Shown piece by piece: positions 3,736 to 60,443 of a stretch of DNA of 64,000 nt. The notes under the pieces were generated by a model, which was not told the origin of the DNA, ran no database searches, and saw only the letters and a program-made list of their open reading frames with translations. The DNA comes from Bettongia penicillata ogilbyi (taxonomy: Eukaryota > Chordata > Mammalia > Diprotodontia > Potoroidae). The position numbers and the translations under genes are program-made. The stretch covers positions 12,119,070 through 12,183,069 of the forward strand of contig JAJHZJ010000496.1 of assembly GCA_023548195.1 (NCBI GenBank), in the 5' to 3' direction. Within the stretch, counting starts at the first letter, position 1; each line of letters begins with the position of its first letter.

Positions 3736-4129
3736 ATTCATCCAATGTGTTTTTTTGCTTTTTCAAAAGTTTCTATAGCACATTCATCATCTTCCAACCA
3801 AGTGACCTTTCCCTTTTAACAAATATTATTTTAAAAGTTCATCAAGACCAATTGTCACATCCTTGACCTTATTCAATAGCATGTATTATTCTAAATCCAG
3901 AGTCCATTACCTTTCCAGTGAAAGGAGGGAGGTATTTTTACTTCACATTCATTTCCGAATATGCTCCTCCTCCTAGCCCAATGAGAATTCCTTTGAAGGT
4001 AAGATTTCTAAAAAAAAAGAAAAAGAAAAAAGACAGCTCAGCAAAACCAACTAATATAAAGGATCAGAGAGCTAAAATGAACTTTTGAGGGCTAATGCCT
4101 TCATTTTACAGATGAGAAAATGTCTCATC

Positions 4130-5190
4130 TATGTAGCGAACTGAGTCAAATTTATACAAATAAAAGCTATTCTCGAGTTGAGAAATGGTTAAAGGACAGG
4201 AACAGACAGTTTTTAGAAGAAACCAAAGCTTTCAATAGTCACATGAAAAAATGCTCTAAATGACTATTAGTTAAACATAAATTAAAACAAATCAGAGATA
4301 CTGCCTCATATCTATCAGAGTAGCAAACATTACAGAAAAGGAAAATAACAAATGTTAGAAGAAATGTAGAAAAATTACGACACTAATGCGTCATTGGTGG
4401 AATTGGTGAACAAATTCAATCCAGTCTAGAGAACAATTTGGAATTATGCCAACAGGGTTATAAAACTGTGTGTTTCCCTTTGACCCGGCAATAGCACTAC
4501 CAGGTCTATATTCCAAAGAGATCAAAGAAAAGGGAAAAGGATCTATATGTACAAAAATATTTATAGCAGCAAATTTTGTGGTGGCGAAAAATTAGAAAGC
4601 AAGAGCATGCCAGTCATTTGGGGAATGGCTGAACAAGCTGTGACCTATTATTGTAATGGACTATTATTGTGACTGTATATATATATATTATATATAAGCA
4701 GAATGGTTTCAGAAAAACCTGGAAAAACTTATTTGAACTCATACAATGCAAAGTGAACAGAATTAAGGGGATATTGTACACAGATAGTAAGAGCAATATT
4801 GTACAGATGATTAGCAATATTTTCAGCAATCCAATGATCAAAGATAGTCCCAAAGTATCCATGATGAAAAATGCTATCCACCTCCAGAGAGAAAATTAAT
4901 AAACTCTGAATGCAGGTTAAAGCATAGTTTTTAAAATGTTCCTTATTTATATAATTTTATTTTGTTTGTATTTTCTTTTGCAACAAGGCTAATATGGAAA
5001 TGTATTTTGTATGACCTCACATGTATAACCAAAACTGAATTACTTGCTTTCTTAAGGAGGGGGAAGGGGAGAGACAGAGGGAGAGAATTTGGAACTCAAA
5101 ATTTTTTTTAAATGACAGTTAAAAAATGTTTTGCAGGTAATTAGGAAATAGTTAACCAAATAAATAAAAGTAATTTTAAAAAGTAAAAAA
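4130..5190 (+). mobile_element. L1 3' end (ORF2 end plus 3' UTR)
   Basis: A 5'-truncated L1 in sense orientation. It contains the therian L1 signature 'CTTTGACCCGGCAATAGCAC' and 'TACAAAAATATTTATAGCAG', then 'GGGGAATGGCTGAACAAGC'. It ends with the 3'-terminal module, a G-rich stretch plus 'GAGAATTTGGAACTCAAAA' (5058-5105), and an A-rich tail. All frames carry stops. This 3'-terminal module recurs in the ORF1-only elements at 32.8-33.8 kb. Confidence 0.85.
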
Positions 5191-6345: not shown

Positions 6346-6469
6346 AAGGAGTTCGATTATATATACGATTTCTTCGAGCTCTTCCTCTGTGATTGGAAAT
6401 GCTTCCTGTATCTTTCTCAGCGCCTAGTGCAGAGAAAACTTGCTTAATCAATACTTGTGAAATTGAATT

Positions 6470-6735
6470 GAAGGTTTTGTTGTTCTTCAGGCCTCTGACT
6501 CTTGGTGACCCCATTTGGGTGACACCATGTCTTGGCAAAGATACTGGAGTGGTATGCCATTTCCTTCTCCAGTCTACTTTACAGATGAAGAAACTGAGGC
6601 AAACAGGATAAAGTGATTTACCCAAGGTCACACAGCTAGGAAGCATCTGCAGTCAGATTTGAACTCAAGGGATGAGTCTTCCTGACTCCACACCCAGCAC
6701 TCTATGCAATATGGTGCCGCCTGACTGCCCTGAAT
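6470..6735 (-). repeat. MAR1-like CORE-SINE, minus
   Basis: A nearly complete reverse copy: 'CTCTTGGTGACCCCATTTGG', 'CTTGGCAAAGATACTGGAGT', 'TGCCATTTCCTTCTCCAGT', 'AGGTCACACAGCTAGGAAGC', then the head 'CTTCCTGACTCCACACCCAG'. Confidence 0.9.
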
Positions 6736-9283: not shown

Positions 9284-9610
9284 TTATTTCCAATTAATTT
9301 TTTGCCTGTCTTTCCATGGCCCTTTATTACATATAATTGTTATGGCATCATGATCTGAAAAGAATGCCAGGAATATTTCTGCCTTTCTGTGTTGAATTGG
9401 GAGTTTTTTATGCCCTGGTATATGGTCAATTTTTGTGTATGTGCCATGTACCACTGAGAAAAAGATATATTCCTTTCTATTCCCATTCAATTTTCTCCAG
9501 AGGTCTACCATTTCTAAAATTCTATTCAGCTCCTTAACTTCTTTCTTATTTATTTTGAGGTTAAATTTATCAAGTTCAGAGAAGGGGAGGTTGAGTTCCC
9601 CCACCAGGAC
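9284..9610 (-). pseudogene. L1 ORF2 endonuclease-domain fragment
   Basis: The minus-strand translation shows the C-terminal part of the L1 ORF2 apurinic-like endonuclease. The residues 'YTKIDHI' and later 'SDHDAI' match the family's conserved YxKIDHI and SDH catalytic motifs, preceded by the typical acidic, Leu-rich 'ELNRILEMVDLWR' stretch. L1 ORF2p nicks the target DNA and reverse-transcribes L1 RNA. Here only about 107 codons survive, without start, reverse transcriptase or 3' UTR, so it is a dead fragment. It is the only endonuclease-coding trace in the window. Confidence 0.85.
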
Positions 9611-9634
9611 AGCTTTGCTACACTGGTAGCTTTA

Positions 9635-12598: not shown

Positions 12599-13129
12599 TT
12601 ATTTTTGAATTTATTTAGTATTTTATTTTTCCCCAGTTACATGTAAAAACAATTTTTAACATTCATTTTTAAAACTTCAAATTCCAAATTCTCTCCCTTC
12701 CTCCCTCCCCATCCCCTTTCATTGAGAAGGCAAGCAATTCAATATAGGCTATACATGTGTAGTCATGGAAAATATTTCCATATTAATCATGCTGTGAAAC
12801 AAAACATAGACCAAAAGAAAAAAACTCAAGAAAAATAAAGATTTTTTTAAAAAAATATGCTTCAATCTGTATTCAGACACTCTCAGTTCTTTTTCTGGGG
12901 ATGGGCAGCATTTTTCATAAGTCCTTCAGAGTTGTCTTGAGAATAGCTGTCATTCACAGCTGATCATCTTACAATATTGCTTTTACTTTGTACACTGTAC
13001 ATTTCACTTTGCATCCGTTCATGTAAGTCTTTCCAGGTTTTTCTGAGAGCATCCTACTCCTCATTTCTTATAGTACAATAGTATTCCATCACAATCACAT
13101 ACCACAATTTGTTCAGCCATTTTGGGGAG
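12599..13129 (-). mobile_element. L1 3' UTR, minus, nested in L1
   Basis: The reverse of the marsupial L1 3' end runs from the poly(T)/A-rich end near 12600 ('CCCCAGTTACATGTAAAAAC') through 'GGCAAGCAATTCAATATAGG' to 'ACCACAATTTGTTCAGCCAT'. The 'GGCAAGCAATTCAATATAGG' block also occurs inside the ORF1-only element at 22260-22280, showing a shared 3' UTR. It splits a sense L1. Confidence 0.8.
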
Positions 13130-13464
13130 GTGAATTATTAAAACAAGGGATAACAAAAAGACTGTAAAAGATAGATAATTTCAACTACATGAAAATGAAA
13201 AGCTTTTGCACTAACAAAATTAATGTGACTAGAATAAGAAAAGAAGTGGTCTTATGGAGGAAAAACCTTCGCATTAAATATCTCTGATAAGGATCTGATA
13301 TATATGATGTAAAGGCAACAAATAAAATTTGTATGACCAAAGAGCGTCCCTCAATAAAAGATATGAACTCCTTATTTATTGGAGAATGCCTTGGTCATAC
13401 ACATTTCTGCAAACTATTAAAAACTATATTAAAAGAATATCCCTAATCACTAATAATTTTTATT

Positions 13465-21914: not shown

Positions 21915-24400
21915 TTTCTTTTTTTATTTTAAATGTTTATTTATTAATTTTTAGTTTTCAACATTCATTTCCACAAAATTTTGAGTTCCAAATTTTTTCC
22001 CCATCTCTCCCCTCTCCACCCCATAATGTCTTTCGTTCTGATTACCCCTTCCTTCAATATGCCCTCCCTTCTATCATACCCTTCCCTTTCCTTATCCCCA
22101 TCTTCTCTCTGTTCTTGTAGGGCAAGATAGATTTCTGTACCCTATTACCTGTATTTCTTATTTCCCAGTTGTATGTAAAAACATTTCTCAACATTTGTTC
22201 CTAATACTTTGAACTTCAACTTCTCTCCCTTCCTCCTTCCCCACTCATCTCCACTGAGAAGGCAAGCAATTCAATATAGGCTATATATGTGGAGTTTTGC
22301 AAAAGACTCCATAAAAGTCATGTTATGTAAGACTAATTATATTTCCCTCTATCCTATCCTGCCTCCCATTTATTCTATTCTCTCTTTTGACCTTGCCCCT
22401 CCCCAAAAGTGTTTACTTCTAATTACTCTGTTCTCCCATTTGCCCTCACTTCTATCATCCCCCTTAGCCCACTTGGCCCCTTCTCCCCCGCTTTCCTGTA
22501 GTGTAAGATAGATTTTCATGCCAAATTGAGTGTACATGTTATTCCCTCCTTAAGTCAAATGTGAAGAGAGTAAGCTTTACTTTTTCCCTCTCACCTCCTC
22601 CCTTTTCTCCTCCATTGAAAAAGCTTTTTCTTGCCTCTTTTATGGGAGATAATTTGCCCCATTCCATTTCTCCCTTTCTCCTCCCAATATATTCTTCTCT
22701 CACCCCTTAATTTTATTTTTTTAGATATCATCCCTTCTTAATCAAGTCATCTTGTGATCTCTGTCTATATGTGTGTGTGTATAATCCCTCCCATTACCCA
22801 AATACTGAGAAAAGTCTCAAGAGTTACAAATATTATCTTTCCATGTAGGAATGTAAACAGTTCAACTCTAGTAAGTCCCTTATGATTTGTCTTCCCTGTT
22901 TACCTTTTCATGCTTCTCTTGATTCTTGTGTTTGAAAGTCAAGTTTTCTTCTCAGCTCCGGTCTTTTCATCAAGAATGCTTGGAAGTCGTCTATATCACT
23001 GAATGACCATTTTCCCCCTGAAGTATTATACCCAGTTTTGCTGAGTAGGTGATTCTTGGTTTTAATTCTAGTTCCTTTGACTTCTGGAATATCATATTCC
23101 AAGTTCTTCAATTCCTTAATATAGAAGCTGCCAGATCCTGTGTTATCCTTAGTTTATTTCCACAATACTCAAATTGTTTCTTTCCAGGTGCTTGCAATAT
23201 TTTCTCCTTGACCTGGGAACTCTGAAATTTGACTATAATATTCCTAGGAGTTTCTCTTTTTGGATAGTCTTTTAGGAAGTGATTGGTGGATTCTTTCAAT
23301 ATTTATTTTATTCTCTGGTTCTAGAATATCAGGGCAGTTTTCCTTGATAATTTCATGGAAGATGATGTCTAGGCTCTTTTTTTGATCATGGCTTTCAGGT
23401 AGTCCCATAATTTTTAAATTGTCTCTCCTAGATCTATTCTCCAGGTCAGTTGTTTTTCCAATGAGATATTTCACATTATCTTCTATTGTTTCATTCTTTT
23501 GGTTTTGTTCTGTAATTTCTTAGTTTCTCATAAAGTCATTAGCTTTCATCTGTTCCATTCTAATTTTGAAAGAACTATTTTATTCAGTGAGCTTCTGAAC
23601 CTCCTTTTCCATTTGGTTAATTCTGCTCTTTAAAGCATTCTTCTCATTGGCTTTTTGGGCCTCTTTTGCCATTTGAGTTAGTCTATTTTTTAAGGTGTTA
23701 ATTTCTTCAGCATTTTTTGGGTCTCCTTTAGCAAGCTGTTGACTTGCTTTTCAAGGTTTTCTTGCATCGCTCTCATTTTTCTTCCCAATTTTTCCTCCAC
23801 CTCTCTTACTTGATTTTCAAAATCCTTTTTGAGCTCTTCCATGGTCTGAGACCATTATATATTTATTTTGGAGGTTTTGCCTGCAGAAGCCTTGACTTTT
23901 AGGTCTTCCTCTGAAGACCTAAATTGTTCCTCCTCATCCAAAAGGATGAAAGAAAATACCTGCTCACCAAGAAAGTAATCTTCTATTGTCTTATTCTTTT
24001 TCCCTTTTGGGGGAATTTTCCCAGCCAGTTACTTGACTTTTGAGTTCTTTGTCAGGACTGAGCTCAGGGCTGAGATTCAGATCAGTGGCTCAACTCCCCC
24101 AGGGGTTTTAGGCAGAGGTCTCCCAGGGCTCCCACTAGGGCTGAGATTTAGATCAGCTGCTCAATTCCCTCTAGGCAGATGGCTTCAAAAATGGAAGCTC
24201 CCACTGCTGGGGGTACAGACCAAGCTCCCCTCTCCTGGGTGAAGGGACCCTCCCACTGATATTTGAAGCTGTTTGTGGGTTGAGCAATCTTGGAACTGGT
24301 GCTGCCAGTGACTCCATGAAGTCTATTCAGGGTCTTGACCATGGCATGTCAGGCTGCACTCTGCTCCTGGGCTATGCTGCATGCACTCTGAGGTTCCTGG
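21915..24400 (-). mobile_element. ORF1-only L1 (HAL1-like), old copy, minus
   Basis: Read on the minus strand: a 5' UTR remnant with repeated 'GAGCAGCTGATCTAAATCTC'-type blocks (about 24400-23870), a decayed ORF1 (about 23860-22910), then directly a 3' UTR of about 1 kb (22905-21930) and an A-rich tail. The 3' UTR holds the (TG/CA)n island, two G-rich blocks and the 'GAATTTGGAACTCAAA'-like end motif. No ORF2 lies between ORF1 and the 3' UTR. The element is old, with several stops in ORF1. It has the same plan as the two elements at 29.5-35.5 kb. Confidence 0.85.
22908..23860 (-). pseudogene. ORF1 pseudogene of HAL1-like element
   Basis: Frames on the minus strand (22908-23111, 23108-23299, 23244-23474, and coiled-coil-like sequence up to about 23850) give ORF1p residues in order. 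These are the Lys/Glu-rich coiled coil, 'NLKIMGLPESHDQKK' in the RRM, 'RDFxKRETPRNIIVKFQSSQ'-like RNP1 strand, and 'FLMKRPELRRKLDFQTQE' at the C-terminus. Internal stops and frameshifts separate them. ORF1p is the trimeric RNA chaperone that coats L1 RNA. This copy cannot make it. Confidence 0.85.
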
Positions 24401-29470: not shown

Positions 29471-30791
29471 ATCAAAACCATCCAAGGAGGGGTAGAACCA
29501 AGATGGAAAAGTAGAAATACATTAGCTCTTCCCCCACAGCCCATAAAATACCTATAAAGAAAGACTCTCAACAAACTCTAGAGCAGCAGAAGCCACAGAA
29601 CAACAGAGTGGAGGAGATTTCCAGCCCAGGGTCACCTGAAAGGCCAATGGGAAAGGTCTGTCCCACAGGATGTGGAGCAGAGCCCAGCCCAGTCTTGGCC
29701 ATGGCACGGTGCTGGGAGGAGGACCCAAGCAGGTCTTGAGGGAAGAATTCCCAGCAGAAGTAGCCATGGTTTGCACATCCCTCAACCCACAGGTGCCAAA
29801 AGTAAGTAAGAGGGTTTTTTCAGCTGCCCTAGAAGGGAGCAGGGTCTTCCCATAGCTCCAGCCTCAGACAGCAGCAGAGGCCACATCAGGTAGCAGCAGC
29901 TCCCACAGCAGCCCTCATCCACTGTTGAATTGTAAAACCCCTGGGGGATCTGAGCAGCTGATCCTTACTTCAGCCCTGTGTGGTGGCCCTGTCCCTACCT
30001 AATGCTCCTGGGAGAATTGAGCAGCTGATCTTTATCTCACACTGAATGATGGCCCTGACCCTGCCCAAAGCCTCTGGGGGAATTGAGCAGCTTATCTGAA
30101 TCTCAGCCCCCAGTGCTAGCCTGATGGAACTGGAGGCCAGGTGGTTGTGGAGAGGAAACTCTACTACTCACAGATTCTGGGCACAAAAGTTTCTGGTTGC
30201 TCCCAGACCAGTGTACATGCTTGTGTGTGCCACCTTGCAAGTGTGCCACCTTGGAGGAACTGAGATCTTACAGATACCCAGAGTATACCCTACTCTTGAC
30301 AAAGGACCCAAAAGTAAAGTAACTGATTGGGAAAATGCCAAAAAAAAAAAAGGAAAAAAAGTAAAACTATAGAAGGTTACTTTCTTGGTGAACAGATATC
30401 TTCTCCCATACTTTCAGATGAGGAAGAACGATGCTTACCATCAGTAAAAGACATAAAAGTCAAGGCTTCTGCATCCCAAACAACCAAAATAATTATTCAG
30501 TGATCTCAGGCCATGGAAGAGCTCAAAAAGGATTTCGAAAATCAAGTAAGAGAGGTAGAGGAAAAACTGGGAAGAGAAATGAGAAAGATGCAAGAAAATC
30601 ATGAAAAGCAGGTCAACACCTTGCTAAAGGAGACCCAAAAAAATGCTGAAGAAAATAACACCTTTAAAAATAAGCTAACTCAATTGGCGAAAGAGGTTCA
30701 AAAAGCCAGTGAGGAGAAGAATACTTTAAAGAGTAGAATTAACTAAATGGAAAAGGATGTTCAAAAGCTCGCTGAAGAAAATAGTTCTTTC

Positions 30792-30809
30792 AAAATTAGA
30801 ATGAAACAG
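30792..30809 (+). repeat. Target site duplication, left
   Basis: 'AAAATTAGAATGAAACAG' precedes the young element and is repeated perfectly at 33809-33826. The duplicated bases belong to the older ORF1. Confidence 0.95.
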
Positions 30810-30820
30810 GGGGGCGGAGC

Positions 30821-30831
30821 CAAGATGGCGG
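30821..30831 (+). promoter_or_regulatory. YY1-like site at +12 of element
   Basis: 'CAAGATGGCGG' lies 11 bases after the first base of the element. The older copy keeps 'CAAGATGG' at the equivalent place (about 29499), then diverges. Human L1 has a YY1 site at the same relative position, which directs accurate 5' initiation. Confidence 0.7.
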
Positions 30832-31175
30832 AGTAGAAGGACGCACATTCACGAGCTCCGAACCCACAACCCATGGAATTGAGGTAAAAGGAGAGCCCCA
30901 TAAATTCTGAATCTCTGCAGGGGGTGCACAAACATAGGGGAAGAGATTTCCGTTCCACTGAACCCTGGAGAGCCGTCCCCGGGGTCCATCGCACTCCAGA
31001 AAGCGGACCCCACCCCCACCCCTGGCCGCGACCCAGAGAAGCTGACCTGAGCAGACTTCAGAGAGGAAAGCTCCGGGAGAATCTCCGGCAGCCGGGAAAG
31101 TCCCTCTGTCCACAGAAGCTAAAGGTCAGTTAAAAAGAAGCCTGCGCTAGGGGAGGGGAGCGGGCCCCCTCGGGA

Positions 31176-31260
31176 GGAAGCGGCGGCGGCAGAGACGGGG
31201 TCAGGAAGCGGCGGAGGCAGAGACGGGGGCAAGAAGCGGCGGAGGCAGAGGCGTGGGCGG
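31176..31260 (+). repeat. 28 bp tandem units in 5' UTR
   Basis: Three units starting about 31176, 31204 and 31232 share 'GAAGCGGCGGAGGCAGAG' with 'ACGGGG' or 'GCGTGGG' after it. They are GC-rich with two or more CpGs each. Confidence 0.85.
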
Positions 31261-31337
31261 GCGGCTGAGGCGGCAGCGGCCCGGGACTCAGGAATCCCCC
31301 AGCAGCAGGTAGGATCTTCAATACTGAAGGTCTTTCC

Positions 31338-31560
31338 AACCTGAGGGAGCCGAGCAGGGGAGACGGCCCTGCCCCCACCCCGCTCTACTGCTGAACGCCT
31401 CTGAATAAAACCCCCAAGGGAGCTGAGCACAGCAGGCGGGGCCCCCCACCCCACCCCCACCCGCTCTGTTCCTGAAAGTCGCTTCAGAAAGCCCCTGAGG
31501 GCCCAAGCTAGGAAGCGGCCCTGCCCCCACCCTGCGCCAGAACTAAAGCTTGCTGCGGGA
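31338..31560 (+). repeat. 75-85 bp monomers in 5' UTR
   Basis: Three diverged units share a 'GAGGGAGCCGAGC' / 'AAGGGAGCTGAGC' / 'GAGGGCCCAAGCT' start and a 'GGCCCTGCCCCCACCC'-like core (31366, 31438 and 31518 region). They end with 'GAACGCCTCTG'/'GAAAGTCGCTTC'-like text. Older copies have their own monomers at 29937-30115. Confidence 0.7.
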
Positions 31561-31653
31561 AAGCGCATTTGAATCTCAGAGGTCAAGTACTGGCTGGGCG
31601 GATCCAGGCGGAGGTGGAAGGGAATCTCAGGGGTCGGGTAACTGGCTGGGAAA

Positions 31654-32760
31654 ATGCCTAGAAAGGGAAAGAAAAATAAGACTTTAGAGAGTTTTTTCCA
31701 ACAAATGCAAATGATCCCGACCTTCGGATCTGATGGGGACGACGAGGACTTATTTTTCCCATCAGGGAAAGATGTGGAGGGCGGGGCCTCAGTACCCCAG
31801 ACACCCCAGGGGGGTGTTGGGTGGGCTCAGGCCTTGGAAGAGCTTAAAAAGGATTTTGAAAAGCAAGTTAGACAGGTGGAGGAAAGACTGGGAAGAGAAA
31901 TGACAAAGATGCAAGAAGAGTATGAAAAAAAGGTCAATATCTTGGTAAAGGAGTCCCAAAAAAATGCTGAGGAAATTAACACCTTGAAAAATAGGCTCAC
32001 TCAATTGGCAAAAGAGGTTCAAAAAGCCAATGAGGAGAAGAATGCATTCAAAAGCAGAATGAGCCAAATGGAAAAAGAGGCTCAAAAGCTCACTGAATTT
32101 AATAGTTCTCTCAAAATTAGAATGGAACAGATGGAGTCTAATGACTTTATGAGAAACCAAGAAATCACCAAACAAAACCAAAAGAACGATAAAATGGAAG
32201 AGAATGTGAAATATCTCATGGGAAAAACAACTGACCTGGAAAATAGATCAAGGAGAGACAACTTAAAAATTATGGGACTACCTGAAAGCCATGATCAAAA
32301 AAAGAGCCTAGACATCGTCTTGCATGAAATTATCAAGGAAAACTGCCCTGACATTCTAGGACCAGAGGGCAAAATAAGTATTGAAAGAATCCATCGATCA
32401 CCACCTGAAAGAGATCCAAAAAGAGAAACTCCTAGGAACATTGTGGCCAAATTCCAGAACTCCCAGCTCAAGGAAAAAATCTTGCAAGCAGCCAGAAACA
32501 AACAATTCCAGTACTGTGGAAATATAATCAGGATAACCCAAGATCTAGCAGCTTCTACATTAAGGGATCGAAGGGCGTGGAATAGGATATTCCAGAAGGC
32601 AAAGGAACTAGGACTGAAACCAAGAATCACCTACCCAGCTAAACTGAGTATAATACTTCAAGGGAAAATATGGTCTTTCAATGAAATAGAGGACTTTCAA
32701 TCATTCTTAATGAAAAGACCAGAGCTGAAAAGAAAATTTGACTTTCAAACACAAGAATGA
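31654..32760 (+). CDS. LINE-1 ORF1 protein (ORF1p), intact
   Basis: This frame encodes a 368-residue L1 ORF1p, an RNA-binding trimeric chaperone that packages the element's RNA in cytoplasmic particles. In order: a basic N-terminus (1-9, 'MPRKGKKNK'), a short acidic linker (26-32), a long heptad coiled coil (about 58-195) rich in Lys/Glu, an RRM (about 203-283) with RNP2-like 'LKIMGL' (204-209) and RNP1-like 'RNIVAKF' (261-267), and a C-terminal domain (about 284-360) with 'RRAWNRIF' and 'PRITYPAKLSII' (323-334). It is slightly longer than the roughly 340 residues usual in human. The ATG has A at -3 (GGGAAAATGC), and no earlier in-frame start is plausible. No ORF2 follows; a non-coding 3' UTR begins at the stop. 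Unlike its two relatives in this window it has no stops, so it is recent or kept by cis-preference. Confidence 0.95.
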   Translation: MPRKGKKNKTLESFFQQMQMIPTFGSDGDDEDLFFPSGKDVEGGASVPQTPQGGVGWAQALEELKKDFEKQVRQVEERLGREMTKMQEEYEKKVNILVKESQKNAEEINTLKNRLTQLAKEVQKANEEKNAFKSRMSQMEKEAQKLTEFNSSLKIRMEQMESNDFMRNQEITKQNQKNDKMEENVKYLMGKTTDLENRSRRDNLKIMGLPESHDQKKSLDIVLHEIIKENCPDILGPEGKISIERIHRSPPERDPKRETPRNIVAKFQNSQLKEKILQAARNKQFQYCGNIIRITQDLAASTLRDRRAWNRIFQKAKELGLKPRITYPAKLSIILQGKIWSFNEIEDFQSFLMKRPELKRKFDFQTQE

Positions 32761-33774
32761 GAGGAAGCATGCAAAAGTAAACAGCAAGGAGAAGTATTAA
32801 GGGACTTACCAGAAATGAACTGTTTGCATTCATACAGGGAAGGACAATATTTCTAACTCTTAAAACTTTTCAGTATCTGGGTGGTTGGTGGGATCACACA
32901 TACACATGTACACGCATGCACACACATACACACATGCATTCACATGCAGAGACAGAGATCACAGATTGAACTGAATAGGATGGGACCATACCTTAAAAGA
33001 AATTAAGGTAAATGGTGAGAGAGAAATGTAGTGAGAGGAAAGAGGGGGAAATGGAAGGGGGTAACTATATGTCATTTAAGAGGCAAGTAGGAGATGTTTT
33101 TAGTGGAGGGAAAAAGAGGAGAGCTGAGGGAAAAAAAAAACAAACAAACAAACAAAAGTTTACCCTCATCACATTTGACTAAACGAAGGAGTGAAATGCA
33201 CACTCATTTTGGTATGAAAACCTATCTTACAGTATAAGAAAGCGGGGGAGAAGGAGATATTGGGGGGGGGATGATGGAAGGGAGGGCAAAGGGGGGAGGG
33301 AGAAATTGAAAGTCAACACTTGGGGAGGGACAGGATCAAAGGACAGAAGAGAAACAATGAGGGGCAGGTTAAGAGGGATGGCAATTCAGTTAGTCTTACA
33401 CAACACGACTATCAGGAAGGTCACTTGCAAAGCTACACAGATATGGCCTATAATAAATTGCCTGCCGTACCAAAGGGAATGGATGGGGAGGGAGGGATGG
33501 GGAGAATTTGGAACTCAAAGTTTCAGGAACAATTGTTTAGTATTGTTGTTGCAACTAGGAAAGAAGACATACAGTTAATGAGGAATAGAAAGTCATCTGG
33601 CCCTACAGGAGAAAAGAGAAGATAGAGACAAGGGAAGGGAGGGATGACAGAAGAGAGGACAGATTGAAGATAGGGAAAATTAGATTGCTTGGGGTATTGG
33701 GGTGGGGGGAGGGGAGAAAAGGGGAGAAAATTTTGAACCCAAAAATTTGTGAAAATGAATGTAAAAAGCTAAAT

Positions 33775-33787
<13 letters not shown>
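32761..33787 (+). other. 3' UTR of young element
   Basis: A non-coding end of about 1 kb: imperfect (CA)n at 32896-32950, (AAAC)n at 33130-33156, a G-run block at 33242-33302 (GGGGGAG, G9, GGGAGGG, GGGGGGAGGG), then 'GAGAATTTGGAACTCAAAG' at about 33503. A second set follows: G-runs at 33690-33725 and 'TTTTGAACCCAAAAATTTGT' at 33732-33751. The terminal motif appears in the autonomous L1 at 5058-5105. All three ORF1-only copies in the window share this order. Confidence 0.8.
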
Positions 33788-33808
<21 letters not shown>

Positions 33809-33812
<4 letters not shown>

Positions 33813-33826
33813 TTAGAATGAAACAG
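33809..33826 (+). repeat. Target site duplication, right
   Basis: 'AAAATTAGAATGAAACAG' after the poly(A), identical to 30792-30809. The first A bases are ambiguous with the tail. Confidence 0.93.
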
Positions 33827-35479
33827 ATGGAGGCTAATGATTTTATAAGAAACCAAGAAATCACAAAACAAAATGAAAAGAATGAAAAAATGGAAGATAA
33901 TATGAAATATCTCATTGGAAAAACAACTGACCTGGAAAATAGACCCAGGAGAGACAATTTAAAAATTATGAGACTACATGAAAGCCATGACCAAAAAAAG
34001 AGGCTAGACATCATCGTTCTTGAAATTATCAAGGACTGCCCTGATATTCTAGAACCAGAGGGTAAAATAAATATTGAAAGAATCCACCAATCACCTCCTG
34101 AAAGAGATCCAAAAAGAGAAACTCCTAGGAATATTATAGCCAAATTCCAGAGTTCCCAGGTCAAGGAAAAAATATTGCAAGCAGCTAGAAAGAAACAATT
34201 TGAGTATTGTGGAAATACAATCAGGATAACACAAGATCTAGCAGCTTCTACATTAAGGGATTGAAGGATTTGGAATGTGATATCCCAGAAGTCAAAGGAA
34301 CTAGGACTAAAACCAAGAATCACCTACCCAGCAAAGCTGAGTATAATACTTCAGGGGAAAAATGGTCTTCAATGAAACAGATGACTTTCAAGCATTCTTG
34401 ATGACAAGACCAGAGATGAGAAGAAAATTTGACTTTCAAACATAAGAATCAAGAGAAGTATCAAGAATCAAGAAGTAAACAGGAAAGAGAAATAATAAGG
34501 GACTTGCTAAAGTTGAGCTATTTACATTCCTACATGGAAAGATAATATTTGTAACTCTTGAAACATTTTTCAGTATCGGGGTAGTTGGTGGGATTATACA
34601 TGCATGCACACACACAAACACACACACATAGAGAGAGAGAGAGACAGAGAGCACAGGGTGAGTTGAATAGGAAGGGATCATATCTTAAAAAATAAAACTA
34701 AGGGGTGAGAGAGGAATATAATGGGAGGAGAAAGGGAAAAATGGAATAGGGCAAATTATCTCTCATAAAAGAGGCAAGAAAAAGATTTTTCATTGGAGGG
34801 AAAAAGGGGGGAGGTGAGAGGGAAAATGTAAAGCTTACTCTCATCATATTTGACTGAAGGAAGGAATAAAATGCACACTCATTTTGGTGTGAAAACCTAT
34901 CTTACAATACAGAAAAGTGGGGGAGAAGGGGATAAGCAGGGTTGGGGGGAAGGGAGGGCAATGGGAGGAGGGAGCAATTATAAGTCAACATCTTGGGGAA
35001 GGACAAGGTCAAAAGAGAGAATAGAAGAAATGGGGGGCAAGAGGAAAATATAGTTAGTCTTATACAACATGAGTATTAATGAAATCATTTGCAAAGCTAC
35101 ACATATATAGTCTATATTGAATTACTTGCCTTCCCAGTGGGGATGGGTGGGGAGGGAGGAAGAAAGAGAAGTTGGAACTCAAAGTTTTAGTAATAACCGT
35201 TGAGTATTTTTCCTGCTTACAACTGAAAAATAAGAAATACAGGTAATAGGATATAGAAATTTATCTTGCCCTACAGGACAAAAAAGAAGATGGGAATAAT
35301 GGAAGGGAGAGATGTTAGAAGGGAGGGCAGATTGGTGGTAGGGGTAATTAGAATGCTCAGCATTTTGGGGTAGGGGAGGGGAGAGATGGGGAGAAAATTT
35401 GGAATTCAAAATTTTGTGGAAATGATTGTCGAAAACTTAAAATAAAGACATTTTTAAAAATTAAAAAACTCTTTTATAG

Positions 35480-42600: not shown

Positions 42601-43135
42601 CCAAAAAAAAAAAATAATAACAATACTACCAAAATTAATTTACAGTTTTATTGATATACCAATTAAACTACCAAAGATATAATTTACAAAACTCAATAAA
42701 ATAATAACAAAATTCATTTGGAAGAACAAAAGATCTAGAATATCAAGGAAAATAAAGAAAAAATAGGAAATAACATCCAGATCTCATATTCTATTAGAAA
42801 GTAGCAATTATCAAAACAATTTGGAACTAACTAGTACCAAAAAATAGAAAAGTAGGCCAGTAGAACAGATCTGGCAAAGTAGGCTTAGACCAATACTTGA
42901 CAATAAATTCAAAATGGATATGTGACCTGAATATTAGAGATTTAATTAATTTTTTAAAAACAGAAGAGAAGCAGATCATATATCTTTCATAGCTACATGT
43001 AGAAGATCTATTCTTAATCAAATGAGGGACAGAGGAAATTGCAAAAGATAAAACAGAATTTTGACCACATGAAATTAAAAAGTCATTGCCTTAACAAAAT
43101 CAGTGCAACCAAAATAAAGGAAGAGGATTTTTTTT
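42601..43135 (+). mobile_element. L1 ORF2 C-terminal fragment
   Basis: Sense L1 text: 'TTCATTTGGAAGAACAAAAG', 'TACCAAAAAATAGAAAAGTA', 'AAATTCAAAATGGATATGTG', 'AAATTGCAAAAGATAAAACA'. The frame is broken, and there is no 3' UTR. Confidence 0.8.
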
Positions 43136-45601: not shown

Positions 45602-46344
45602 GGATCAAATTCTCCCTCTACATTTTCTCTCTGGGCTGTCTACCTGGGTAGATGCCTCCCTTCCTATTTTTACTCAGCTGCCTCCATTTGTCTTGATGTT
45701 CTCAGAGAAGATGCTGCTTCTTTTAAACAGATGCCTCTTCCTCTAAACACCTCTAAAGAAAAACAATTTTGATCAAATTCACATGCAGATTATATGGGAG
45801 CTGGCCAACCGTTCTTATCATAATTGACCAGAACTGTAACATTCCAAGGCTTTATACACAGTTTTAGAATGATTTTCTTTGGTGCATATTTCATATCTTT
45901 ATGAAATGTTACAGTTTGTCTAGAAAAAAAATTTCCCCTAAAAGTAAAACACTTTCCTGTCTTTTTATTAACACTTGGGAGTGTTTGATGGAGTACAAAG
46001 GAGAGATTCAGAATTTTTATATGTTTTCAGACTTTTACATACACTATTTGCTTTCTTAAATTCAGTCATCTCAGACAAAAGAGAAAGTGATTACTGGCTT
46101 GCATGCTTTTTTTGAGATAGTTTCCTTTCCTTAATCACATTTATAAGACAAAATGTTACATTGTCTGAGAAATTCATTAGACTGCTTTGAAAGGACATGT
46201 AAAAATGATGGATACTGCTTCTAGAACTCTGTGTTCTGTCTGATATGGCAAGTTTCACATTATCATGCCAAGAATCATGCCTCCACATCAATTCCCAGTC
46301 ATTTACAAACCATGAGTGAAACTTTTGGGACAAGAATTCACTAT
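45602..46344. other. Unclassified
   Basis: No gene and no repeat recognised. Confidence 0.35.
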
Positions 46345-47440
46345 TTGACAAAAACTGCTGGGAAAACTGGTAAATAGTTTGGTTGTAACTAGGTATAGAC
46401 CAAACATCTCACACCACATACTAAGATATGGTCAAAATGGATACATGATTTAGATACAAAGCATAACATCACAAACAAATAAGAGGAACATGATATAGTT
46501 TACATGTCAGATCTATGGATAGGGGAAAAATTTATGACTAAACAAGAGACAGAAAGCATTACAAGATATAAAATAGATACTTTTATTATATTAAATTTGA
46601 AAGGTTTTGCACAAACAAAACTAATGCAGCTAAGATAAGAAGGAAAGCAGAAAGTTAGATGGGGTTGGGGAATTTTCAGCAGGTGTCTATGATTAAAGCT
46701 TCATTTCACAAATATATAGAGAACTGAGTCAAATTTATAAGAATGCAAGTCATTCTTCAATTGACAAATGGACAAAAAATCTGAAAGGCAATTTTTAGAT
46801 AAAGAAATCAAAGCTATCTACAATGATGAAAAAGTTCTCTAAATCACTTTATTAGAGAAAGGAAATTAAAACAACTCTGAAGTACCACCTCACCCTATAA
46901 GACTGACTAATCTGACAGAAAAGAAAAAATGATAAATTCTGGAGAAGATGTGGGAAAAATGGGATTCTAATATGCTGTTGGTGGCATTGTGAACTGACCC
47001 AGTGATTCTGGAGGACAATTTGGAACTATGCCCAAAGAACTATAAGACCACATATACCCTTTGACCCAATAATATCCCTACTAGGTCTGTATTCCAAAGA
47101 ATCAGAAAAAAAGGGGAAAGGACCTATTTGTACAAAAATATTTATAGCAGCTCTTTTTGTGGTGACAAAGAATTGGAAATTGAGGAGATGTCCATCAATT
47201 GGGGAATGGCTGAACAAGTTGTATAGGATTGCAATGAAATATTATTGTGCTATAAGAAGTGGAAAGCAGGACGATTTCAGAAAAACCTAGAAAGTCTTAC
47301 ATGAATTGATGCAAAGTGAAGTGAACCAAACCAGGAGAACACTGTATACAGGAACAGCAATATCATAAGAATGATCAACTGTGAATGACAGCTAGTCTCA
47401 GCAATACAGTGATACAAGACAATTCCAAAGGACTCATGTT
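46345..47440 (+). mobile_element. L1 3' end (ORF2 end plus 3' UTR)
   Basis: Sense L1 from 'GACAAAAACTGCTGGGAAAA' through 'CATGATTTAGATACAAAGCA', 'CTTTGACCCAATAATATCCC', 'TACAAAAATATTTATAGCAG' and 'GGGGAATGGCTGAACAAGTT' to 'CTCAGCAATACAGTGATACA'. The ORF2 frame is broken. The end is cut off before the G-rich module. Confidence 0.9.
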
Positions 47441-56400: not shown

Positions 56401-56865
56401 TGGGGTTGTCTCGATCATTATATTGCTAATAGCTGTTATTCAGTTATTCATCATACAGTATTGCTGTAATTATATACAATGTTCTCCTGGTTCTACTCAC
56501 TTCACTTTGCATCCTTTCATGTAAGTTGTTCCAATTTTTTTTAATCATCCTGCTTATCATTTATTATAGCACAATAATATTCCCTTACAATCATGTATTG
56601 TACTTGTTCAACCATTCCCCATATGATAGGCATCCCTTTAATTTCCAATTCTTAGGCACCACAAAAAGAGCTGCTATAAACATTTTTGAACAAGTTCTTT
56701 TCCCATTCTTTTTTTTTGTCGCTTCAGGATACAGATCTATTAATGGTGTTGGTGGATCAAAGGGTATGCATAGTTTTATAGCCCTTTGGGTATAGTTCCT
56801 AATTGCTCTCCAGAACGTCTGGATCAGTTCACAACTCCAATAATGCATTAGGGTCCCTCAAACTA
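56401..56865 (-). mobile_element. L1 3' UTR, minus
   Basis: 'ATACAATGTTCTCCTGGTTC', 'TACTCACTTCACTTTGCATC', 'CAACCATTCCCCATATGATA' and 'AAAAGAGCTGCTATAAACAT' are the antisense marsupial L1 3' end. Confidence 0.85.
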
Positions 56866-59455: not shown

Positions 59456-60443
59456 ATTGATTGTGCACTCAGTGCAGCCTCTGAAGCTGAGATACAACAA
59501 AGTATGGATCAATTCTCTGCTACCTGTGCTAATTTTGGTCTAATAATTAACACCAAGAAAACACAGGTGCTCCATCAGCCACCACCACACCATCCATACG
59601 TGGAACCATCGGTTACAACAAATGGCGAAGTTTTGAATGCTGTGGGTAAGTTCACTTACCTTGGCAGTGTACTTTCCAGGGATGTACACATTGACAATGA
59701 GACTGATGCATGCATTGCCAGAGCTACCTCAGTGTTTGGGAGGCTCCAAAAAAAGGTTTGTGAAAAAAGAGGTATTAGACTGACTACCAAACTGAAGGCC
59801 TACAGAGCTGTTGTGCTGACCTCATTGTTGTATGCCTGTGAAACGTGGACAGTCTACCAGCACCATGCCAGGAAACGGAATCACTTCCATTTGAACTGTC
59901 TTAGGAAGATTCTGAAGATCACCTGGCAGGATAAGGTACCAGACACTGAAGTCCTTGCTTGAGCTGAACTGCCAAGCATTCAGATTCAGAGAGCACAACC
60001 CAGATGGGCTGGCCACATGGTTCGGAGGCAAACTATACACTTGCCAAAAAGACTATTTTATGGAGAACTCACATGGGGCAGGTGATCACATGATGGTCAG
60101 AAGATGCAATACAAGGACACTCTCAAGGTCTCTCACAAGAAATTTGGATTTGACTGTACTACATGGGAGACACTGGCACAGAACCGCTCAGCATGGCATG
60201 CCCACATCAGAAGGGGTGCTATACTCTATGAGTAAAGCAGAATTAAGGCAGCACAAAGTAAATGCAGGATGCGCAAATTAGTAGTATCCACCCCAAATAT
60301 ACATACGGACTATCTGTGCGCAACCTGTGGTAGAGCATTCTGAGCTCGTATTGGTCTGATCAGCCACAGTCATACACACTGAAACTTCATTTTGTCATTG
60401 TGATGTCATTTTGGTCCTCTTCAAAAATGAAGGACAACAACCC
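59456..60443 (+). mobile_element. RTE-clade LINE, 5'-truncated
   Basis: The sense 3' end of an RTE (BovB-like) LINE. It begins just after the catalytic FADD box ('DCALSAASEAEIQQSM') and ends 'ATGAAGGACAACAACCC' without poly(A), as usual for RTE. The final bases resemble the SINE tail at 21100-21145. RTE LINEs encode endonuclease and reverse transcriptase and mobilise tRNA-derived SINEs in trans. Confidence 0.85.
59504..60160 (+). pseudogene. RTE reverse transcriptase C-terminal pseudogene
   Basis: The frame 59504-59962 gives RT thumb/C-terminal residues in RTE order: 'NFGLIINTKKTQVL', 'FTYLGSVLSRDVHIDNETDA', 'TKLKAYRAVVLTSLLYACET' and 'LRKILKITWQDKVPDTEVLA'. After a stop the homology shifts frame ('RWAGHMV', 'PKRLFYGEL', about 60000-60085). 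Truncation before the catalytic site and the frameshifts make it non-functional. Confidence 0.88.

Follow-up and report, generated by a model that had tools for sequence, protein, structure and literature searches.

A young HAL1 element in the genome of Bettongia penicillata ogilbyi, probably one of a long-amplified L1 derivative that lost ORF2

How can an L1 retrotransposon spread when it carries only one of its two open reading frames (ORFs), and what would the remaining frame do for the RNA that encodes it? The question is raised by an element in a 64,000-nucleotide stretch of the genome of the marsupial Bettongia penicillata ogilbyi (assembly GCA_023548195.1, contig JAJHZJ010000496.1, positions 12,119,070 to 12,183,069 of the forward strand), hereafter called the window. 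The element occupies window positions 30810-33808 and is bounded by exact 18-bp direct repeats (30792-30809 and 33809-33826). It is very probably a young HAL1 (half-L1), a derivative of L1 from which ORF2 was lost and which has been amplified over a long time. Its parts, including the 5' and 3' untranslated region (UTR) sequences, are laid out as follows.

30792..30809, + strand: left target-site duplication, AAAATTAGAATGAAACAG, an exact match to 33809-33826
30810..31653, + strand: 5' UTR, presumed Pol II promoter
31172..31283, + strand: 28-bp G+C-rich tandem units within the 5' UTR; the unit count varies between copies
31654..32760, + strand: intact ORF1 encoding an L1 ORF1p of 368 amino acids, zero internal stops
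32761..33389, + strand: initial portion of the 3' region; homology to the L1 ORF1-ORF2 spacer; right boundary approximate, from alignment
33390..33787, + strand: last part of the 3' region, tentatively and weakly like the end of an L1 3' UTR (E-values 0.0016 to 0.2)
33788..33808, + strand: poly(A) tail of 21 A
33809..33826, + strand: right target-site duplication, exact repeat

A preliminary description of this DNA had claimed a 5' UTR, an intact 368-codon ORF1, a poly(A) tail and an 18-bp target duplication, and all of these are seen; the initial AAAA of the repeat is indistinguishable from the A-tail, therefore 14 of the 18 bp are unambiguous. The ORF1 protein contains an L1 RRM domain (E 4e-14) and a dsRBD-like domain (E 1e-11), and its match to solved L1 ORF1p chains has E 1e-32. 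The claimed absence of ORF2 also holds: tblastn with the ORF2 of L048, an L1 of the same genome with both frames intact (ORF1 of 379 amino acids, ORF2 of 1283 amino acids), gives zero matches inside 30810-33808, and no ORF2 with endonuclease and reverse transcriptase, as an autonomous L1 has, was found there. The claim of a 3' UTR is only partly right, since a 3' region (32761-33787 as a whole) is present but is largely old inter-ORF spacer rather than a simple 3' UTR.

Close relatives were sought in the assembly of the window's genome (3.39 Gb, 1116 contigs). An ORF1 search gave 1396 candidates, of which the best 40 were scored, the window copy included, and the other 39 were fetched (L009-L047). 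These 39 show 99.55-99.82% ORF1 identity to the window copy, and in every one of them ORF1 is followed by the same 3' region without ORF2. The element starts within its first 24 bases in 37 of the 39; L026 and L032 are 5'-truncated, and the 5' end of L034 aligns as two overlapping pieces. ORF1 is intact in 39 of the 40 rows (window included), with a frameshift in L022. L013 and L019 are a single insertion with an identical duplication on two contigs, near the contig ends, representing a leftover haplotype or duplicated assembly sequence. The 39 fetched loci are therefore 38 insertions, and the counts that follow use 39 insertions, window included.

The insertions carry the marks of L1-mediated retrotransposition. 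A duplication of at least 12 bp together with an A-rich tail accompanies 34 of the 39 (median 16 bp; scoring tolerated at most one mismatch in ten, and L025, L030 and L032 each carry one mismatch). Base 1 or 2 of the element is the start of 35 of the 39 insertions (33 if two duplication-less insertions are omitted). Bottom-strand nick sites are T-rich, as is typical of L1 endonuclease. The 35 near-full-length copies differ on average by 0.85%, and private non-CpG change amounts to about 0.12% per copy on average (six such changes in the window copy). The neutral rate is near 2e-9 per site per year; at this rate, the private change indicates that most young copies are about 1 million years old or less. 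The recent activity proposed earlier is thus supported.

The 5' UTR of the young HAL1 has no blastn match in the fetched L048 stretch. Other L1s carry promoter monomers, and by analogy the 28-bp units may work in the same way. Exact cores of the unit number 0 to 5 per row, mostly 2 or 3 (40 rows, including truncated ones). A 149-amino-acid open frame runs antisense to this region (window 31119-31568, - strand); an antisense ORF is also contained in the primate L1 5' UTR, and the present one is likely due to chance in G+C-rich sequence.

Two older HAL1 copies in the same window extend the record back in time.

29486..30809, + strand: older decayed HAL1, the insertion target of the young element, with 5' UTR and the first half of ORF1; start approximate
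33827..35463, + strand: remainder of the older target HAL1, running from the second half of ORF1 through the shared 3' region; ORF2 absent; end approximate
21936..24170, - strand: third HAL1, decayed, without ORF2; ORF1 at about 24016-22922, then the same 3' region; 5' end approximate

When rejoined, the flanks of the young element match it at 81% over 1,980 aligned columns, with no gap at the insertion point. Both older copies are decayed, with three stops each (306 and 309 codons compared) plus gaps. In the alignment, the young stop codon TGA is TCA in both of them; the frame of the third copy continues a few codons past this site, and the host copy stops two codons earlier. In all three window HAL1s (young, host and third) ORF1 leads directly into the same 3' region. 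Since one junction is common to all three, the ORF2-less lineage seems to have amplified repeatedly.

Searches with older sequences agree. Junction searches with the two old copies gave 8739 and 8058 candidates, 40 being scored in each (query included) under a ranking that favours unbroken matches; the junction is spanned in 40 of 40 of these best scored rows in each search, the other rows being 85-90% and 87-89% identical, respectively. An ORF1-only search with the third copy gave 15210 candidates, 40 of which were scored, and 261 bases downstream were fetched for 20 of the 39 others. All 20 sampled relatives continue into the HAL1 3' region with zero ORF2 matches; the match of L121 starts about 300 bases deeper into this region, and that of L135 covers just 59 bases.

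The genome share was estimated from sixty points of 200 bases each, placed at round coordinates of contigs that carry young copies, a choice which introduces a mild bias. HAL1 is present at 8 of the 60 (Wilson 95% interval 7-24%), or about 13% of the genome; ten points had matched HAL1, and L101 (26 bases) and L105 (closer to L1) were dropped. L048 matches eight points, or 6 of 60 after removal of L050 and L100, which are nearer HAL1, and the L1 share is underestimated because a single L1 served as query. In the flanks of the fetched copies, HAL1 makes up 10.8% of 99,567 bases. At all seven informative HAL1 points ORF1 leads into the 3' region and ORF2 is absent, the 5'-truncated L068 being uninformative on ORF2. 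The eight HAL1 points are about 72% to 94% identical to the nearest of the three window HAL1s, a spread which indicates that amplification spanned a long time. Of the 39 young insertion points, six (L014, L021, L031, L035, L039 and the window) lie inside older HAL1s. This is no more than the flanking background given above predicts (p = 0.24), and the idea that HAL1 favours HAL1 as its target was dropped.

Where the 3' region comes from bears on how ORF2 was lost. At the nucleotide level, blastn of the HAL1 3' region against L048 finds almost nothing (34 bp). Only sensitive alignment and profiles reveal the homology: alignment places the region co-linear with the L048 ORF1-ORF2 spacer (z about 11 for the old copies, 4.3 for the young copy); a three-copy profile matches the spacer at E 3e-11 (the top score among 200 shuffled spacers being E 2.9), and a four-copy profile at E 4e-17. 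The alignments thus identify the 3' region firmly as mostly former L1 ORF1-ORF2 spacer. The L1 3' UTR, in pairwise alignment with the HAL1 3' region, stays near background (z 2.0 to 2.5), and 3' UTR-side matches range from E 0.0016 to 1.7 across models, with none of 500 shuffled 3' UTRs attaining the best score. Adding a fourth copy to the profile raises the spacer match from 35 to 54 bits and lowers the 3' end match from 9.6 to 2.4 bits; for this reason, the apparent joining of the last part from the end of the L1 3' UTR is kept tentative.

Weak matches reach L048 base ~2581, just within ORF2, and restart at ~6622-6624 in the 3' UTR. HAL1 therefore looks like an L1 with ORF2 excised between these two places, the left one firmly and the right one tentatively placed. 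The right edge, where the homology is weak, lies next to an AG of L048 (6625-6626). Of the 22 AGs in the L048 3' UTR this one alone satisfies a simple pyrimidine rule, which was chosen after the place had been seen. Near the left edge (2581-2582) there is a GT at L048 2587, one of eight such GTs within that 160-base stretch. It is possible that ORF2 was lost via splicing of an L1 RNA, which would have joined the beginning of ORF2 to a 3' UTR acceptor.

Has ORF1 been kept by selection while ORF2 was gone? Compared pairwise with each old copy, the young copy has dN/dS of 0.35 and 0.28. The branch parting the young copy from both old ones carries 65 nonsynonymous, 45 synonymous and one stop-changing differences, giving omega of 0.37-0.54 (transition weights 1 to 4; p 7e-7 to 0.0015); this test set aside 17 sites at which all three copies differ, and the first few codons lie outside the comparison. 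These substitutions indicate that ORF1 has evolved under purifying selection. If the shared junction correctly suggests that the lineage was without ORF2 throughout, ORF1 was kept for HAL1's own sake.

Candidate helpers exist. A reverse transcriptase search gave 40,006 candidates, and among the best 150 scored matches 63 sit in 1298-amino-acid open frames (in one of these, a TGA falls within the matched part). Such L1s, with a full ORF2 frame, are thus possible helpers for HAL1, and ORF2p provided in trans would be the only plausible source of reverse transcriptase. The autonomous L1 L048, the one candidate whose sequence was examined, resembles HAL1 in its homologous ORF1, its spacer, which corresponds to the first 3' part of HAL1, its G-rich 3' end and its A-tail. 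It differs in the possession of the 1283-amino-acid ORF2, in an ORF1 that is 74% identical over 751 nt, and in the unmatched 5' UTR. Besides its terminal A-tail, L048 has a run of about 33 A at 6440-6472, 37 bases past the ORF2 stop, seen in this single copy; such a run could affect which RNA ends ORF2p uses.

A working model follows. HAL1 RNA would presumably be transcribed from a promoter in its own 5' UTR and translated to ORF1p, which might act in cis by coating the RNA that encodes it. ORF2p, with its reverse transcriptase and endonuclease, would be supplied in trans by autonomous L1s of the same genome and would act on the HAL1 poly(A) tail by target-primed reverse transcription. The lineage itself would have descended unbroken without ORF2.

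HAL1 thereby constitutes a natural separation-of-function experiment for L1, addressing what ORF1 does for its carrier RNA. If ORF1 was indeed intact and selected while ORF2 was absent, ORF1p must help its encoding RNA despite the presence of other ORF1p. Persistence of such a lineage would mean that ORF1p must come from the carried RNA and ORF2p can be stolen, so that cis preference would not be the same for the two L1 proteins. With near-identical intact HAL1s and full-ORF2 L1s in one genome, the cis question is testable with native pairs. And if the 60-point estimate is right, HAL1 sequence forms a large share of this marsupial genome, one that is hidden by counting L1 as one class.

Several lines of evidence weigh against this picture. 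A search for a target duplication around the old host HAL1 copy gave none, and a clear duplication with an A-rich tail is missing in 5 of the 39 young insertions (L022, L029, L038, L039 and L045). The best 40 were picked by ORF1 similarity, in a ranking that favours intact frames; as only best-scoring candidates were seen, rare ORF2-bearing relatives could escape. The private changes of the two old copies, which ought mostly to reflect neutral decay, have omega of 0.62-0.92 and 0.45-0.67 and thus also lie below 1. This is under the level of pure decay, therefore either some of these changes arose on lineages that were still active or the contrast is blurred. Variants shared among young copies (3 synonymous, 4 nonsynonymous) do not suffice for a separate test, and part of the selection on ORF1 could date from an ORF2-bearing ancestor. 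The helpers invoked for HAL1 are themselves candidates.

That the window copy is a lone internal deletion whose close relatives keep ORF2, the outcome which the preliminary description had named as fatal to its proposal, is hardly credible: the origin of the family itself resembles an ancient deletion of ORF2, yet ORF2 is missing in all 39 best relatives, all 20 sampled older copies and all seven informative copies at arbitrary points. It is very improbable that the sequences are a domesticated ORF1 gene, or processed copies of one, kept by the host in the manner of L1TD1. Purifying selection on ORF1 would fit domestication, whereas many dispersed copies with their own duplications, tails and retained 5' UTR, and many decayed copies, do not; the sequences are dispersed insertions with separate duplications, not an L1TD1-like single-copy gene at a conserved place.

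A more serious rival, though still unlikely, holds that HAL1s were repeatedly spawned by an ORF2-bearing L1 with the same ORF1, so that old and young copies do not form one lineage. In its favour, HAL1s are reported to have arisen independently within mammals (PMC5753468), loss of ORF2 could have recurred through the pyrimidine-rich acceptor located at the putative breakpoint, and the copies examined were top-scoring or sampled ones. Against it stand the one junction and co-linear 3' region common to the young and the two old copies, the lack of any relative with ORF2 in the set of copies examined, and the distance of the autonomous L048 in both ORF1 and 5' UTR. The identification as a young, long-amplified HAL1 is compatible with a wider proposal, advanced here tentatively and judged somewhat less probable than its opposite. 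It envisages a single ORF2-less L1 parasite, a separate lineage over much of marsupial history, with a selected ORF1, making up about one eighth of the genome (roughly the share resembling the candidate helper L048) and active still. It would perhaps have been born by splicing from the start of ORF2 to a 3' UTR acceptor, would need ORF1p in cis and would steal ORF2p.

Among proteins, an ORF1 search returned 62 matches, the best (81%) from the tammar wallaby Notamacropus eugenii in a cluster of 20 member sequences; named matches are almost all marsupial. The wallaby protein P0001 and the window ORF1 protein end in identical residues. A tree built from 31 proteins (the window protein, L048 and 29 of the 62 matches) places the window protein beside those of wallaby and wombat and, less tightly, near some from devil, opossum and bilby, apart from L048 and the wallaby protein P0012. 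The wider group including devil, opossum and bilby has support of 93/85, and its members may be HAL1 or L1. P0013 carries the label of a Bacteroidales metagenome bin and is an L1 ORF1p grouping with marsupial L1; host DNA probably entered the bacterial bin.

Mammalian HAL1 (half-L1) families were reportedly treated by Bao and Jurka in 2010 (Gene 465:9). The element described here has an L1 ORF1p, lacks ORF2 in the copies examined, occurs in many copies with tails and duplications, and derives from L1; since every HAL1 feature that could be tested is present, it is assigned to the HAL1 kind. HAL1s are described as L1 derivatives with ORF1 only, tails and target duplications (PMC5322556) and as having originated several times in mammals (PMC5753468); derivation from L1, restriction to ORF1, poly(A), duplications and dependence on L1 enzymes are shared with the present family (PMC5322556, PMC5753468, PMC8535693). 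The view in the preliminary description that half-L1s are known mainly from decayed copies does not stand, as HAL1 families of less than 1% divergence are known from guinea pig and marmoset (Jurka et al. 2011, PMC3183009). Table 2 of that paper gives no HAL1 below 1% divergence for opossum or wallaby and leaves its families below 5% unnamed. Literature titles and abstract openings name no young marsupial HAL1 family, in a coverage outside which most subscription journals and Repbase lie, and a catalogued one may well exist. The present family takes about 13% of the genome by the 60-point estimate, which makes it far more abundant than human HAL1 with its nearly 2,100 copies (PMC5322556). Its 3' region is mostly former spacer. 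The combination of genome share, time depth plus present youth, selected ORF1 and spacer-derived 3' region is unusual and notable.

Two further systems invite comparison. Spliced integrated L1 elements (SpIREs) lose 5' parts, not ORF2, and are not known to form a lasting lineage. Human SpIREs are spliced L1 RNA that was re-integrated (PMC5860796), a possible route of ORF2 loss. L1TD1 likewise has ORF1p domains without ORF2, but it is described as a placental gene absent in marsupials (PMC4161310), whereas the present element is a dispersed repeat.

The remainder of the window contains further retrotransposon remains. Fragments resembling L1 ORF2 (tblastn, L048 ORF2) lie at 4120-4658, 9287-9619, 13003-13431, 42617-43058, 46320-47359 and 56477-56857. 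An open frame of 152 amino acids at 59504-59962 (+ strand) seems to resemble the C-terminal part of an RTE/BovB-type reverse transcriptase.

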